This document shows positions 3,809 to 27,500 of a stretch of DNA of 27,500 nucleotides, in pieces (positions within the stretch are counted from its first letter, which is position 1; the number at the start of each line of letters is the position of its first letter). The stretch comes from Tubiluchus corallicola. Taxonomy: Eukaryota > Priapulida > Priapulimorpha > Priapulimorphida > Tubiluchidae. Both the position numbers and the translations under genes were made by a program. The DNA is taken from the NCBI GenBank assembly GCA_030141605.1, contig JAQGDQ010000837.1, forward strand, positions 1 through 27,500, in the 5' to 3' direction. The notes beneath the pieces were generated by a model. It saw only the letters and a program-made list of their open reading frames with translations, searched no databases and was not told where the DNA came from.

Positions 3809-4470
3809 CTATTAATAAGCAGAAAATATTTTTTGTTTAGGATTTTATTAAGTTTATGCACAAACTTTCATATGTTTGTTTGTTTAACATTGCAAAATTT
3901 TTGCAAATTACAACACAAAACTACATATGTTTGCTTCCTTTTACACAGTAGTAAAACAATGGCTAAAAATTTTCTGAAGCAGACCTCCATTTTAGCTACG
4001 AGCTTGCCACTGGACGATTTAAAAAATGTCAGAGTCCAACCCCTAAAGTAAATTATCAATGTGCTATATATAAAGGCAGGGTTTTTAGGACTTTTTAGTC
4101 GTACACTGCGGTCAAACTTATTCCCCTTTTCAACATAAGTTTAACTATTGTTTGCTTGTGATTCTATTGTGTGAAATCTACATCAAAAACTTGTTGAAAG
4201 CGATGCACATAAAATAGAATGTAGGTAGCTTCAGCAATTCCCATCCGCCGCTTTACAGGCTAACTAACTGTATTCTTTTTTATGAATGCAGATGGAAAGA
4301 CTAAGGAAGAGTGATGCTCACAAAATTAATAAACATTCAAAAGTTTAGGTCAGATTATAACTCATTATCTACTAAACCAAATGCAATTCCAATTGTTTAC
4401 TTTTGCGCAGTCAGATAAATTTACAAAAGTAACACTACAAATTAACCAATTAAAAAATAGGCCATTATAC

Positions 4471-4743
4471 CGCTTCATATTTCAATCGTTCAACATTCCT
4501 CTCTGATTTTTCTGCTTCTAGCCTTTGAACACTTAGCTGCAATTCATTAATTTGGTCATTTTCTCTTTCATTCTTCTGCGCTAAAGCTTCCAGCTGCTCT
4601 AGAACGTAGATTACTTTGGGCATTAATTCTGTTACAGAATCTGTACCATAAAATTCAATTATTCTCTCAAACTCTTTTCCAATTGAAGAAGCAGACTCAT
4701 AAACGTCAACCACTGTAATGTCTGCAACTTGTTCGACATCCAT
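4471..4743 (-). CDS. RILP-like protein, first coding exon (RH1 domain)
   Basis: The 91 codons from ATG at 4743 read MDVEQVADITVVDVYESASS and continue through GKEFERIIEFYG, ELMPKVIYVLEQLEAL and a heptad-like stretch (INELQLSVQRLEAEKSER). This is the RILP homology 1 signature: V.DVY..A..IG.EFER.I...G...V..LMPKV..VLE.LE, then coiled coil, closest to RILPL1/RILPL2. RH1 dimerises and binds partners such as myosin Va in vertebrate RILPL2, while RH2 (not seen here) binds phospho-Rab8/10. The exon ends in phase 0 at GAAGCG|GTATAA. An in-frame upstream ATG at 4860 would add 39 residues without family similarity, so 4743 is preferred. The rest of the gene lies at lower coordinates. Confidence 0.88.
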
Positions 4744-4980
4744 TTTGACAACGGATTTTATAAAACTTCGCTTTTTATCTACTACTAGATTAATAAAATT
4801 TATAGTTTTTCGCAACACGTGATGAAATTTCGCTATGCGGCGCGAAGGCGTCGATTTCACTTAAATTTAGCAATCGGTCCTAACTGAGCTTAGTGCATCA
4901 CTATGATCTACGCGGTATTTTGCACGACCATGACACGCAAGTTTAAAACAAAGGTTTGTGGTGGATATTATTTTGTCAAA

Positions 4981-6368: not shown

Positions 6369-7468
6369 CAGGGGCGTAGCTAGGCACTAAAGATAGGGGG
6401 GAGCAAGCACATAAAAAAGGGTACCTTGCTATAACACTCTCATAATAAAATATAAAGACACCAATACTTGCTTTCCAATACATAATTGACAGTACCTCTA
6501 CTACTAGACAATCACATCTAAATCGTGTCTAGATAATCGTGTGACAAGAACATATTATAATAATCAGATTTGGGGCAATCTTAACCTTGATTCAATCAAA
6601 CAACCTTGGCAAATGAATTGAATTAAAGCACGCTCATATCAAAAACACGGGAGACAGGGTAGCCAAACAAAGTAATGACTCCATTATTGAAAAAGTGCCA
6701 ATTTTGAAATGTGCTCCGGGGAGCGGTTGCATCCCCCTTGCTCCGCTGCTAGCTACGCCACTGTTCTTGGTAGACTTCACTGGACAAATTAAATCTTGAA
6801 AATGCTTAAAATATCTCATGGAGTAGCTGACAAAATCCTGGCATGAGGGCTGAGTGAACAAGCCTTTAACTGTATCAAGTACATCGGATATAATCCTAAA
6901 AACAAATGTTCGGTTAATATCATCTAATCATAGTGAACACTTTAAACTGTTGCCTCGCCACTGTTCTTGGTAGACTTCACTGGACAAATTAAATCTTCAA
7001 AATGCTTAAAATATCTCATGGAGTAGCTGACAAAATCCTGGCATGAGGGCTGTGTGAACAAGCCTTCAACTGTATCAAGTACATCGGATATAATCCTAAA
7101 AACAAATGTTCGGTTAATATCACGTAATCATAGTGAACACTTTAAACTGTTGATACACCAATAGTTGCCCTTACCTATTGAATTTAATTGCTTTAAAAAT
7201 GTCTGCTCACTGTCCGTATTTAAAAAAATATATTAATCATATTCACCTGCTTACTTACTGATTAATGACTTTGTTTTGTTTTTCATTTTCAACAACTTAC
7301 CGTCTAGGATAATAATAATACAGGTCCTACTTCCCTTCTGTATGTATATTTGCAGTGCACACCTCCATATATCTAATCAAGTGTTGCCTCCTCCACAAAT
7401 CCTTAGCGAATGTGTTTAAACATTTATAATTACTTTGTACCGTACATCAGTTTATATCGTAATTACGA
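5950..7468 (-). repeat. Right arm of the large inverted repeat
   Basis: Reverse-complement partner of 272-1345. It carries the complete MITE (6369-6763), both 200-bp tandem units (about 6763-7150) and the gene-like outer part. It keeps about 430 bp that the left arm lost. Confidence 0.85.
6369..6763 (+). mobile_element. hAT-like MITE M1, complete copy
   Basis: Ends are CAGGGGCGTAGCTAGG and the inverse of CTAGCTACGCCACTG. Flanks are TTCTTATT on the left and TTCTTGGT on the right, 6 of 8 matching. The 395-bp interior has no transposase. Sister copies are at 22167-22560 (complete) and 978-1287 (truncated). The 75-codon minus frame at 6634-6861 runs across the MITE border and is not a gene. Confidence 0.8.
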
Positions 7469-11600: not shown

Positions 11601-12508
11601 GTTCGACACTATACTAATTTGACAACGTACATAATATATCATTACAAAATGAAATACTAGAATTCAAATTCTCAGAATAAAGATTCATATAATTAGAAAA
11701 AAATTCTTAAGAATGTAAAAAAGTGAATGATAAGTTGAAACGATCGTTTGTGCTTGATAAATAGAGTGAACAACACCTAATTGTAGATTCCTAAAGGCTG
11801 GTTCTTTCATGTATTTATCTGAAAATTATTAACAGAGCTACAAAATAATGGGATTCTCTCAGAACAAATATAATGTGGGTTACGCTTCATACAGGTAATT
11901 TTTTGTGCTTTAACTGTCTGCCTATTTATTTTACCTCAGATCATCAAAAATCGCTCTGTAATTTTTTTACATTATTATGATATATTATGACTCCATTATA
12001 CATTCGCTTGCTTATGTCTAAGAATTATGCTTGTGTTATAAATTAAATTTCAGTTGAAATTGTTATTATGTTTCTGTTGTCAGATTTTTATTTCAGTTCT
12101 TATTTCAGTTCAGTTTTATTCAGTTATTTTCAGTTTGATTTTTTTTATTATACACTTATTATTTCTGTGTATGAATTGTACTAACACGTTATAAGCATAT
12201 CAATTTAATGTCATTCGCAACAATTTAGTTTTTATTATAAGCAGTACTAACACTAATACACTGTAGCATAGCGCCTATAAAAAATGTTCATCACTAACCA
12301 AAGGGCAGCTGACTAGATGACTGATTGGTCTTTCGCTGCCCTTTCTTCACATTTTTGTTACCAAATTAACTGTATTATAAGTGTGCGTGTGTTACGAGAT
12401 AAATAGAAGATTATTATTATTATTATTATTATTACGCCGTTCTTCCACTAAAACAGAATTAATAAATGTCTTACCTGTTAGGAAAACTGCAAAGGTAGTT
12501 TTTGCCAT
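8315..12508 (-). CDS. Small secreted cysteine-containing protein, three exons, complete
   Basis: Joining 12508-12475, 10057-9871 and 8603-8315 gives 510 bp, 169 codons plus stop, with matching phases (1 and 2) and GT-AG borders (GTAAGACA, GTGAGTCC; TTTGTTTCAG, TTTTGCAG). The protein starts MAKTTFAVFLTALVIGSYA, a typical signal peptide with likely cleavage before C20. The mature part has about 150 residues, seven Cys (20, 35, 73, 83, 93, 151, 164), two N-glycosylation sequons (N37, N54) and mostly helical composition. It should be secreted or lumenal. No family is recognised. Seven Cys leaves one unpaired or suggests a disulfide-linked dimer. Intron 1 (2.4 kb) and intron 2 (1.3 kb) contain a SINE and retrotransposon 3' ends. 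Confidence 0.85.
8697..9405 (-). mobile_element. Non-LTR retrotransposon 3' end with hairpin and hexanucleotide tail
   Basis: Minus-strand 9390-9300 reads SLKSRGVKLWNSLPLKVAYF, the RG.KLWNSLP block near the RT C-terminus of CR1/L2-like elements, followed by an AT-rich UTR. Near the end is a strong hairpin (8806-8848, CAGGGCAG...CTGCCCTG), then AAATAAATGTTCTATGTC repeated imperfectly, a TATGTC-type tail at 8702-8741. The copy is 5'-truncated and lies inside intron 2 of the secreted-protein gene in the same orientation. Confidence 0.8.
9539..9587 (-). CDS. Weak candidate exon with strong donor
   Basis: CCCGTAG|GTGAGC is a strong minus-strand donor. The frame KSACKKDGGTALVKPV ends in phase 1, which joins in frame to the orphan exon at 7899 (giving ...KPV-VQKEM...). 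The upstream acceptor is poor (no pyrimidine tract), so the 5' limit is unknown. It could also be a non-coding first exon. Confidence 0.25.
9588..9870. other. Intron sequence, nothing else recognised
   Basis: Part of intron 2 of the secreted-protein gene. The plus-strand frame at 9531-9764 has no protein-like character. Confidence 0.5.
9871..10057 (-). CDS. Secreted protein, exon 2
   Basis: Begins CT CTG GTT ATT after GTTTGTTTCAG. The last base of exon 1 completes the Ala12 codon. It codes the end of the signal peptide, C20, C35, two sequons and C73, and ends TGG TGC AG before GTGAGTCCAG. Confidence 0.88.
10150..10312 (+). mobile_element. tRNA-derived SINE (family S1)
   Basis: The polymerase III A box (GTGGCCTAGTGG) and B box (AGTTCAAGTCC) are correctly spaced in GAGGTGGCC...CAGGCT. 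A tRNA-unrelated tail follows, ending in TTAAAATTTAATTAATTGAG, a motif also present in the copy at 17283. The T-arm-like part is intact, but the D-arm side cannot fold into a tRNA, so this is not a functional tRNA gene. Confidence 0.75.
10320..10825. other. Intron 1 sequence without recognised elements
   Basis: AT-rich. It contains a short local duplication (TGTAATATAACCAA twice at 10685-10712). No exon supported. Confidence 0.5.
10830..10920 (-). mobile_element. Retrotransposon-like 3' hairpin with ATG/ATT-type tail
   Basis: On the minus strand TTTTATTTTAGAGTTCTGTA is followed by the hairpin CGCCCAATGTCTAC-AAT-AGACGTAATGGGC (about 10842-10872) and then ATATGATGATGATAATGA. The arrangement of hairpin then trinucleotide tail is the same as in the other non-LTR 3' ends here. 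The 5' limit is not visible. Confidence 0.5.
11127..11212 (-). CDS. Candidate first coding exon of an unidentified gene
   Basis: GCAAAAATGGCG is a favourable start context. The frame reads MAHIQDQDFTNPFSLN and continues YVENDLHGFRLR, and it ends in phase 2 at CGAAT|GTAAGCC, a good donor. It lies inside intron 1 of the secreted-protein gene on the same strand but cannot join that gene's exon 2 in frame. I do not recognise the N-terminus. It may begin a gene whose later exons include 7770-7899. Confidence 0.45.
11220..12080. other. Intergenic/intron sequence, no element identified
   Basis: AACGATCG appears at about 11535 (GCAAACGATCGTTTCGTCT) and again at about 11740 (GAAACGATCGTTTGTGCTTG), two short palindromic sites in opposite contexts about 200 bp apart, possibly ends of a small degenerate element. 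Otherwise nothing supported. Confidence 0.35.
12085..12433 (+). mobile_element. Non-LTR 3' end with hairpin and (ATT)n tail (family N2), copy 1
   Basis: Shares about 330 bp with 16452-16740 and, inverted, with 26957-27297. It contains the hairpin AAAGGGCAGC...GCTGCCCTTT (12300-12344) and ends GATAAATAGAAG followed by (ATT)n. The architecture (hairpin then microsatellite tail) marks a CR1/L2-like 3' end. No RT sequence is attached. It inserted about 40 bp from exon 1 of the secreted-protein gene, inside intron 1. Confidence 0.7.
12475..12508 (-). CDS. Secreted protein, exon 1 (start)
   Basis: ATG GCA AAA ACT ACC TTT GCA GTT TTC CTA ACA G, then GTAAGACA. It is too short for ordinary ORF calling. 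It is supported because the split Ala codon and the resulting signal peptide (MAKTTFAVFLTALVIGSYA) only arise when it is joined to exon 2, and because a TATA box sits at the right distance. Confidence 0.85.
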
Positions 12509-12653: not shown

Positions 12654-13502
12654 GCGACACGCTAAGTGCTTTTCTGAGAACTCTGGGCTAAAAATAGAGG
12701 TTTACCTCATTGTGCGACACGCTAAGTGCTTTTCTGAGAACTCTGGTCTAAAAATAGAGGTTTACCTCATTGTGCGACACGCTAAGTGCTTTTCTGAGAA
12801 CTCTGGGCTAAAAATAGAGGTTTACCTCATTGTACGACACGCTAAGTGCTTTTCTGAGAACTCTGGGCTAAAAATAGAGGTTTACCTCATTGTGCGACAC
12901 GCTAAGTGCTTTTCTGAGAACTCTTGGCTAACAGTAGAGGTTTACCTCATTGTGCGACACGCTAAGTGCTTTTCTGAGAACTCTGGGCTAAAAATAGAGG
13001 TTTACCTCATTGTACGACACGCTAAGTGCTTCTCTGAGAACTCTGGGCTAAAAATAGAGGTTTACCTCATTGTGCGACACGCTAAGTGCTTTTCTGAGAA
13101 TTCTGGGCTAAAAATAGAGGTTTACCTCATTGTGCGACACGCTAAGTGCTTTTCTGAGAATTCTGGGCTAAAAATAGAGGTTTACCTCATTGTGCGACAC
13201 GCTAAGTGCTTTTCTGAGAACTCTGGGCTAAAAATAGAGGTTTACCTCATTGTGCGACACGCTAAGCGCTTTTCTGAGAACTCTGGGCTAAAAATAGAGG
13301 TTTACCTCATTGTGCGACACGCTAAGCGCTTCTCTGAGAACTCTGGGCTAAAAATAGAGGTTTACCTCATTGTGCGACACGCTAAGCGCTTCTCTGAGAA
13401 CTCTGGGCTAAAAATAGAGGTTTACCTCATTGTGCGACACGCTAAGTGCTTTTCCGAGAACTCTGGTCTAAAAATAGAGGTTTACCTCATTGTACGACAC
13501 GC
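12654..13502. repeat. 60-bp tandem satellite, 14 copies (array 1)
   Basis: Fourteen head-to-tail units with only a few substitutions each (TAAGTGCT/TAAGCGCT, TTTCTGAG/TCTCTGAG, GTGCGAC/GTACGAC). The array is open through all units in one plus-strand frame because 60 is divisible by three. This is not evidence for a protein. On the minus strand every unit reads AATGAG|GTAAACCTCTATTTTTAG|CC, that is an 18-nt GT...AG segment plus a 42-nt open segment. The array lies directly upstream of the TATA box of the secreted-protein gene. Confidence 0.95.
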
Positions 13503-16451: not shown

Positions 16452-17090
<639 letters not shown>

Positions 17091-22946: not shown

Positions 22947-23150
22947 AGTCGAGCCTCCCCTTTACAATGCTAACCCCAGATTTTTACCAGAACAAAATGT
23001 CTATATTTGCATAGACATGTAGTACTACAGCACCTTGTAGCAATGCTAACCTCGCTTATCGCCCAGACTTCTACCAGAACAAAATGTCTATATTTGCATA
23101 GACATGTAGTACTAAAGCACCTTCTAACAATGCCAAATTCGCTTAACGGC
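22947..23150. mobile_element. pogo-like terminus with 87-bp tandem duplication
   Basis: ACAGTCGAGCCTCCCCTTTA resembles the 17930 TIR type. It is followed by two copies (about 22976 and 23063) of an 87-bp unit containing GTCTATATTTGCATAGAC, a near-palindrome. No opposite terminus was found, so the element is partial. The 80-codon minus frame across it is repeat-derived. Confidence 0.5.
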
Positions 23151-23613: not shown

Positions 23614-23784
23614 TCACAATGTTGGAGTGGCTGGTGTCTCTGTGCTGAAGTACGGAGCGGAATCTTGGACTAGAAGCGTGTGGCACACGTCACAAACCTT
23701 TGACGGTCGCTGGTTGGGACCACTCGGAACTGTTTTTGCCGTGCAGTCATTGCAGAATATCCTGCCACAATGACGGCAGTGATG
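23614..23784 (-). CDS. FYVE gene, last coding exon
   Basis: After ATTTAG the exon reads HHCRHCGRIFCNDC, TVPSGPNQRPSKVCDVC, HTLLVQDSAPYFSTE, TPATPTL and TGA. It supplies the second half of the zinc finger and a 21-residue tail after the last Cys. Confidence 0.93.
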   Translation of the reverse strand, partial: HHCRHCGRIFCNDCTAKTVPSGPNQRPSKVCDVCHTLLVQDSAPYFSTETPATPTL

Positions 23785-25869
23785 CTAAATATAAAATGCA
23801 AACAGTGATGTAACATTTACATAGTTAGTGGATTTTTTTGTGTAAACAATACTTGTTAATCAGTTCAAGTGATTAAACTAGTTACAATCTCGAAATTACA
23901 GACAGGTATAAAGCTTGCATTAAGTGACTGAAAATGACTGTTTACAGTTTAACACAACCTTGAGTTGAGCGACTGAAAATGACTGTTTACAGTTACGACA
24001 TTACAGTTTAGCACAAACTTTGTGTTAAGTGACTGAAAATGACTGTTTACAGTTACGACATTACAGTTTAGCATAAACCTTGTGTCGAGTAACTGAAAAT
24101 GACTGTTTACAGTTACGACATTACAGTTTAACACAAACTTTGCATCGAGTGACTGAAAATGACTGTTTACAGTTACGACATTACAGTTTAGCACAAACCT
24201 CGCGTTAAGTGACTGAAAATGACTGTTCACAGTTACGACATTACAGTTTAGCACAAACCTTGTGTTAAGTGACTGAAAATGACTGTTTACAGTTACGACA
24301 TTACGGTTTAACACAAACCTTGCATCGAGTAGCTGAAAATGACTGTTTACCGTTACGACATTACAGTTTAGCACAAACTTTGTGTTAAGTGACTGAAAAT
24401 GACTGTTTACAGTTACGACATTACAGTTTAACACAAACCTTGCATTGCGCGACTGAAAATGACTGTTTACAGTTACGACATTACAGTTTAACACAAACCT
24501 TGTGTCAAGTGACTGAAAATGACTGTTTACCGTTACGACATTACAGTTTAACACAAACCTTGCGTCGAGTAACTGAAAATGACTGTTTACAGTTACGACA
24601 TTACAGTTTAACACAAACCTTGTGTCGAGTGACTGAAAATGACTGTTTACCGTTATGACATTACAGTTTAGCACAAACCTTGTGTTAAGTGACTGAAAAT
24701 GACTGTTTACAGTTACGACATTACAGTTTAACACAAACTTTGCATCGAGTGACTGAAAATGACTGTTTACAGTTACGACATTACAGTTTGACACAAACTT
24801 TGCATCGAGTGACTGAAAATGACTGTTTACAGTTACGACATTACAGTTTAGCACAAACCTTGCGTTAAGTGACTGAAAATGACTGTTCACAGTTACGACA
24901 TTACAGTTTAGCACAAACTTTGTGTTAAGTGACTGAAAATGACTGTTTACAGTTACGACATTACGGTTTAACACAAACCTTGCATCGTGTGACTGAAAAT
25001 GACTGTTTACCGTTACGACATTACAGTTTAACACAAACCTTGCGTCGTGTGACTGAAAATGACTGTTTACAGTTACGACATTGCGGTTTAGTACAAACCT
25101 TGCGTCGAGTGACTGAAAATGACTGTTTACAGTTACGACATTACAGTTTAACACAAACCTTGCGTCGAGTGACTGAAAATGACTGTTTACAGTTACGACA
25201 TTACAGTTTAACACAAACCTTGCGTCGAGTGACTGAAAATGACTGTTTACAGTTACGACATTGCGGTTTAGTACAAACCTTGCGTCGAGTGACTGAAAAT
25301 GACTGTTTACAGTTACGACATTACAGTTTAACACAAACCTTGTGTTAAGTGACTGAAAATGACTGTTTACAGTTACGACATTACAGTTTGACACAAACCT
25401 TGCGTCGAGTGACTGAAAATGACTGTTTACAGTTACGACATTACAGTTTAACACAAACCTTGTGTCGTGTGACTGAAAATGACTGTTTACAGTTACGACA
25501 TTACAGTTTAACACAAACCTTGCGTCGAGTGACTGAAAATGACTGTTTACAGTTACGACATTACAGTTTAGTACAAACCTTGCGTCGAGTGACTGAAAAT
25601 GACTGTTTACAGTTACGACATTACAGTTTAACACAAACCTTGTGTCGAGTGACTGAAAATGACTGTTTACAGTTACGACATTACAGTTTAACACAAACCT
25701 TGCGTCGAGTGACTGAAAATGACTGTTTACAGTTACGACATTACAGTTTAACACAAACCTTGCGTCGTGTGACTGAAAATGACTGTTTACAGTTACGACA
25801 CTCCTCAGCATCTTCCTCATGCTCCCAGCGCACCTGCGTGTTCACCTGCCGTATCGACTCCAGCTGCAT
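23614..25869 (-). CDS. FYVE zinc-finger protein (RUFY/EEA1-type), last two coding exons, 5' partial
   Basis: Joining 25869-25759 and 23784-23614 gives 93 C-terminal residues in phase 0, forming a whole FYVE domain. W15 is followed by C24xxC27, then FSVTRRK and, across the splice site, HHCRHCGRIFCNDC with C40, C43, C48, C51, then KVCDVC (C68, C71). All eight zinc ligands and the RKHHCR core that binds phosphatidylinositol 3-phosphate are present. The WxxD motif is W-E-H-E. A C-terminal FYVE after coiled coil, ending CHTLLVQ, resembles RUFY proteins (CHTLLLQ) and EEA1. It should act on early endosomes. The intron between the exons (1974 bp) is mostly the 60-bp array made from the first exon's own end. 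Confidence 0.92.
23912..25818 (-). repeat. 60-bp satellite (array 2), about 31 copies of the FYVE exon-intron border
   Basis: Thirty-one full units with register marks at 25800, 25740 ... 24000, plus a partial, deleted unit at 23912-23947. On the minus strand each is 42 nt that code CRNCKQSFSVTRRK in the FYVE frame, then GTTTGTGTTAAACTGTAA, the first 18 nt of the intron. The unit at the high-coordinate edge is the functional exon end. Most differences fall in the TGCGTCG region. A 623-codon minus frame and three plus frames run through the array only because 60 is a multiple of three. Confidence 0.96.
25759..25869 (-). CDS. FYVE gene, penultimate exon
   Basis: After TTATTATTTATCAG the 111-nt exon codes MQLESIRQVNTQVRWEHEED, then AEECRNCKQSFSVTRRK, ending CGCAAG|GTTTGT. 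The exon is phase 0 at both ends. GC content is clearly higher at 25800-25869 than in the surroundings. Upstream exons were not found before 27500. Confidence 0.92.
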
Positions 25870-26935: not shown

Positions 26936-26956
26936 TTTCCAGGATAGATACTCTAA

Positions 26957-27297
26957 TAAATAATAATAATAATAATCTTTTTATTTATCTTGTAACACAC
27001 GCACAGTTATAATACAATTAATTTGGAAACAAAAATGTGAAGAAAGGGCAGCGAAAGACCAATTGGTCATCTAGTCAGCTGCCCTTTGGTTAGTGATGAA
27101 CATTTTTGATAGGCGCTATGCTACAGTGTATTACGGTTAGTACTGCTTATAATAAAGATTTAATTGTTACGAATGACATTAAATTGATGTGCTTATAACG
27201 CGTTAATACAATTCATAACACAGTAATAATAAGTGCATAATAAAAAAAATCAAACTGAAATAAAACTGAACTGAATTTAAGAACTGAAATAAGATCT
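26957..27297 (-). mobile_element. Non-LTR 3' end N2, copy 3
   Basis: Reverse-complement match to copies at 12085 and 16452, with an intact hairpin (27043-27087) and a short (ATT)n tail (26957-26977). Beyond 27297 the sequence is not shared. Confidence 0.75.
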
Positions 27298-27500
27298 AAA
27301 CCCCTCCTCCGGAAGGCAGAAAGTCAACCCTTCTATACATAAACGACGATATTTCACGACAATTACATAAAAAATAAGAGATTACATAGAGATACACGAC
27401 TTTTTTATGTTACAAAAAGACACGTACACAACACTATTAAACTACATACCAGTGTCTTACGTACTGCAGTTCAGTTTATGAATGCGTAGTTCAATTATTT
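27298..27500. other. Window edge, unassigned
   Basis: CCCCTCCTCCGGAAGGCAG is a GC-rich patch just outside the retrotransposon homology. It may be more of that element, but no conserved RT motif can be read. Confidence 0.35.

Follow-up and report, generated by a model that had tools for sequence, protein, structure and literature searches.

How does an intron come to be filled with some thirty copies of the exon edge that precedes it, and which came first, the edge or the array? The question is raised by a minus-strand gene in the 27,500-nucleotide window (the whole stretch of DNA analyzed here), where most of the intron that divides a predicted FYVE finger is occupied by a 60-nt tandem repeat.

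When exon 25869-25759 is joined to the exon starting at 23784, the predicted product carries a FYVE domain (Pfam PF01363, E=4e-19), and the two joined exons match the FYVE structures of RUFY1 and EEA1. Both homology and this Pfam match point to 25759-25869 being the penultimate FYVE exon, as a sequence-only reading of the window had proposed. A protein search returned 34 homologues, every one carrying PF01363; PF09311, the rabaptin-type domain, accompanies it in 15. Because PF09311 occurs in these 15 homologues, the gene is probably rabaptin-like; its C-terminal FYVE is closest to proteins that have PF09311 in addition, and its best named relative is a Blattella germanica protein with both domains (71% identity). 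A tblastn search with the 34 homologues for an upstream exon between 25856 and the window end at 27500 found none (best E 0.10), and the remainder of the gene appears to lie outside the window or to be too diverged. G+C content is low across the window (21-39% per 1-kb step). Just downstream of the gene, positions 22975-23145 hold two 87-bp tandem copies with 90% matches. The window also contains an exon of a RILP-like gene (Table 1), for which the top match stands at 77% and the best named relative is from Priapulus caudatus (66%), with oyster at 59% and beetle at 61%. Insects, molluscs and a priapulid are among the named relatives of the two genes, which, with the low G+C, suggests that the animal is not a lancelet; an ecdysozoan is possible.

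Table 1. Positions of the exons, the intron and the parts of the tandem array within the window; splice sites are predicted by homology.
Feature	Position	Strand	Description
RILP-like gene exon	4465-4860	-	RH1 domain PF09744, E=2.1e-28
Penultimate coding exon	25759-25869	-	111 nt; encodes MQLESIRQVNTQVRWEHEEDAEECRNCKQSFSVTRRK, the first half of the C-terminal FYVE finger; probably rabaptin-like gene
Intron (predicted)	23785-25758	-	1,974 nt with GT...AG ends; phase 0, splitting TRRK/HHCR after the K
Last coding exon	23620-23784	-	HHCRHCGRIFCNDCTAKTVPSGPNQRPSKVCDVCHTLLVQDSAPYFSTETPATPTL; reaches the stop codon
Unit 1	25741-25800	-	Final 42 nt of the exon plus initial 18 nt of the intron; includes the donor site
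Tandem array	23942-25800	-	31 units x 60 nt, counting the exon edge as the first
Truncated terminal unit	23910-23941	-	Aligns to unit positions 15-46 over 32 nt
Unique 3' part of intron	23785-23896	-	Last 112 nt

The exon ends in ...CGC AAG and the intron continues with GTTTGTGTTAAACTGTAA, giving a donor site AAG/GTTTGT at 25759/25758 on the minus strand, and unit 1 consists of the 14 codons CRNCKQSFSVTRRK followed by that same GTTTGTGTTAAACTGTAA. Tandem Repeats Finder reports a period of 60 at 23942-25800, with 31.0 copies, 92% matches and 0% indels. Reading the minus strand from 25800 in 60-nt steps, with a limit of 20 mismatches per step, likewise gives 31 units in gapless succession; unit 31 has a 1-nt deletion. 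Alignment of the truncated unit from 23941 scores 44, a value reached by 0 of 1000 shuffles, and the junction before it reads as a putative 14-nt deletion between two ACTGTAA repeats. Unit similarity was then sought in the 112 nt that close the intron (23896-23785) and none was found (717 of 1000 shuffles score as high), nor is there a unit signal in the 57 nt after the truncated unit or in the final 55 nt of the intron when scored separately, where 722 and 449 of 1000 shuffles do as well. A self-match of 25547-25614 to 23882-23949 (81%) had raised the possibility of decayed units past 23910; it was rejected, as the tail pieces score at chance. These results uphold the 42 coding plus 18 intron nucleotides and the copy number of about 31 given by the sequence-only reading, as do the GT...AG ends at 25758 and 23785 its intron length and the periodicity anchored at 25800 its placement of the array start at the exon edge. 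Its statement that the array fills most of the intron also stands (approximately 1.85 kb of 1,974 nt), with the end corrected, in that the array proper stops near 23910. The term satellite, in its dispersed sense, would go further than what is seen, a minisatellite at a single locus. Self-comparison of the window gives the array no match outside itself, and the unit's core 22-mer has 0 exact matches in viral and 0 in genome contig collections, a weak test given that these hold viral and prokaryotic DNA.

Alignment of the units to the exon edge, a check that the earlier reading had suggested, shows between 0 and 6 mismatches to unit 1 in each of units 2-30, unit 13 being identical to it. Across units 1-30, 19 of the 60 columns vary, in many combinations, and 41 are constant. 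The copies (units 2-30) are without coding constraint: the peptide is still encoded in 10 of 29 and lost in 19, nine carry a stop in the exon-derived part, and codon 12 is altered in 10 and codon 13 in 17. CpG columns vary more often than others (5/6 versus 14/54, p=0.01), which fits CpG decay in unselected copies and presumes methylation in this animal. Plain neutral decay does not predict the sparse variation in unit positions 1-28 (3/28 columns, versus 16/32 in positions 29-60; p=0.002), which persists among non-CpG columns (2/26 versus 12/28, p=0.005), the cut point being post hoc in both comparisons. The exonic (13/42) and intronic (6/18) parts of the unit have similar proportions of varying columns, which, like the sparse stretch, counts against the explanation favoured below.

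From unit 2 to unit 30, the farther a unit lies from unit 1, the more mismatches to it the unit carries (Spearman 0.63, a value matched in 0 of 10000 permutations, in a test that assumes independent units, whereas copies in an array are not independent), and the mean number of mismatches rises from 2.2 in units 2-13 to 4.5 in units 14-30. This gradient agrees with copying from exon to array and with older units lying farther out. Since unit 13 equals unit 1, however, the order of units is not a strict age ladder, and some exchange or re-copying has taken place. A higher-order repeat, suggested by eye from the resemblance of units 14-19 to 25-30, was rejected because permuted orders often match as well. 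Although lag 11 has the highest mean unit identity among lags 1-19 (0.941 versus 0.927 overall), the 347 of 360 matches between these two runs only tie with the best six-unit run (347 as well, for units 1-6 at lag 8). Permuted orders reach 347 matches in 179 of 500 cases, a figure that rises to 330 of 500 if the permutation is confined to units 14-30.

The direction of copying can be read from several features taken together. A loose motif for the exon block is present in 29 of the 34 homologues (P0024, P0025, P0027, P0031 and P0034 do not match), and in the nine of 34 homologues aligned to the block C24, C27 and K37 show no variation and R35 and R36 almost none. Unit 1 alone is joined to the remainder of the exon. 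With the block retained across homologues, a single unit attached to the exon, decay of units 2-30 in the manner of non-coding sequence and divergence that grows with distance, derivation of the array from the exon edge is well supported by sequence comparison, and the exon-to-array direction of the earlier reading gains the homologue evidence to stand beside the junction argument.

We consider it very probable that the locus is an exon-border minisatellite, produced by tandem duplication of the exon edge and by slippage or unequal exchange, with a selected exon copy, decaying further copies and tolerated splicing. A 60-nt stretch across the 3' edge of the conserved FYVE exon would have been duplicated in tandem and then amplified, presumably through slippage during replication or through unequal exchange, so that a short intron of perhaps some 130 nt (its length without units 2 onward) grew to 1,974 nt. 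The exon-resident unit would be kept by selection on the protein and the copies would be free to decay, which would explain why the units near the exon are most like it. The exon's own donor, the closest to the upstream acceptor, would be used, and the array would be removed with the intron; since splicing would use this exon-proximal donor, the array would be tolerated, and it is most likely near-neutral. An unlikely elaboration is that the exon edge acts as a standing template that re-seeds the array, unit 1 being held by selection while exchange copies it outwards, and that the more than 20 intact donors form a reservoir of splice decoys. If so, an alternative protein end or new introns could arise from this bank of donors.

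The array might instead be a selected splicing device, in which about thirty spare donors compete for U1 and thereby tune the output of full-length FYVE protein. Use of a donor at unit 2 or later would retain 60 nt per added unit, in frame. Because the intron part of unit 1 ends in TAA, any later donor would give the same truncated protein ending in TRRKVCVKL, so that every decoy would yield one product that lacks half of the FYVE finger. Under the 50-nt rule of vertebrates, only the donor of unit 2 would place the stop close enough to the last junction to escape nonsense-mediated decay. What speaks for such a device is that 30/30 units retain GT at the donor position, 22/30 AAGGTTTGT and 28/30 the terminal TAA, and that modelled U1 pairing is predicted at -5.5 or -5.6 kcal/mol in 23/30 units. 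But with 41 of the 60 columns never varying, an unvarying GT is not unusual and the intact donors are no sign of selection; moreover, G at -1 is lost in six units, where the modelled pairing would fall to -1.2. Signals in lancelet border arrays could act as cryptic sites, according to the report on them, but the same paper describes the arrays as leaving regular splicing undisturbed (PMC3087553). We regard a selected device as quite improbable. RNA structure that would hide the decoy donors was considered and rejected, the first five units (25800-25501) folding only a little more stably than shuffled sequence (z -1.74; equalled by 8 of 200 shuffles).

Still less probable is an assembly artefact, in which a much shorter array, or none at all, was expanded during assembly. 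Copy number is easily misjudged in tandem arrays, and a study of lancelet PGBD5 gives 2 versus 7 copies of a 60-bp unit in two assemblies (PMC3902484). However, stitched copies of one read would lack the many combinations of the 19 varying columns seen in the first 30 units, so an artefact is unlikely to have made the array, an argument that bears on its existence more than on its exact number of units. Least credible of all is the insertion or capture of a pre-existing satellite with a secondary identity at the exon edge (the edge having been overwritten from the array, for example): unit 13 being identical to unit 1 shows that sequence was exchanged or copied between edge and array at least once, but the exon version is ancestral because homology places its 14 residues within the FYVE family, and the core 22-mer lacks exact matches, which says little given the viral and prokaryotic DNA searched.

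Other repeats occur in the window. A second tandem array at 12654-13502 also has a period of exactly 60 (14.1 copies, 97% matches), and on its minus strand GAGGTAAAC is present in 14/14 units and TTTTTAG in 13/14. Considered as a border array, it gave 0 Pfam matches for two neighbouring plus-strand frames and one minus-strand frame. A 311-residue open frame runs through it and draws matches to seven families, three of them above the whole-protein cut-off; because no stretch passes on its own, these are read as repeat artefacts. Its unit aligns to that of the FYVE array with scores of just 14 and 12, obtained without a shuffle control. Positions 273-1294 and 6447-7466 are inverted copies, 97% identical over approximately 1 kb with a common internal 200-bp tandem duplication, and are probably a mobile element. 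Three copies of one further element (12091-12434, 16455-16766 and 26954-27300) are 91-93% identical, and two of them lead into ATT repeats, of which the 347-bp run at 16741-17087 is one. A LINE-like frame in the window had one weak match.

A literature search, conducted without queries by gene name, returned no report of this locus. Judging by its title, Zhuo et al. 2007 reportedly derives the origin of introns from tandem arrays; the FYVE array, by comparison, lengthens an intron that probably pre-existed. A paper on novel Drosophila introns by tandem duplication (PMC2891723) and another on prawn lectin repeats (PMC7536079) may include arthropod cases. The sequence-only reading had held this arrangement to be unusual, and any claim of exceptional novelty is weakened, as the same anatomy is described for lancelet 'mirages' (PMC3087553, PMC3902484). 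These are minisatellite-like tandem duplications of exon-intron borders in Adh3 and the globins BflGb6 and BflGb9, with units of 10-72 bp in Adh3 and 150-160 bp in the globins, many with AG/GT signals; BflGb9 duplicates the 3' boundary of exon 2, BflGb6 has 6 and 3 units in its two haplotypes, and regular mRNA splicing is reported (PMC3087553). As in the mirages so described, the FYVE unit appears to span an exon-intron border (42 + 18 nt, the exon being assigned by homology), is of minisatellite size (60 bp, against 10-160 bp) and keeps its splice-signal dinucleotides, GT in every one of 30 units and AAGGTTTGT in 22. Unlike the lancelet cases given there, it comprises about 31 units of 60 bp, lies in a probably rabaptin-like gene and is known from the DNA of one haplotype. 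In lancelet PGBD5, 60-bp units overlap exon 3 and 108-bp units exon 4, with the first units abutting splice sites and copies numbering 2 or 7 and 3 or 6 by assembly (PMC3902484); the two loci thus share 60-bp units at a splice site, and the genes are unrelated. Human variable internal tandem repeats are minisatellites at exon-intron boundaries (on average 30-bp units x 4, in segmental duplications) that alter gene structure and can form novel introns (PMC2812944), whereas the FYVE array bears no sign of an altered exon. The array is accordingly a further case, with high copy number, of the exon-border minisatellites known in lancelets, and apparently extends the phenomenon, with a clear source and direction, to a different branch of animals. 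As a natural experiment, the locus bears on how the spliceosome settles on a single donor when about thirty almost identical ones are present, and on how introns lengthen.
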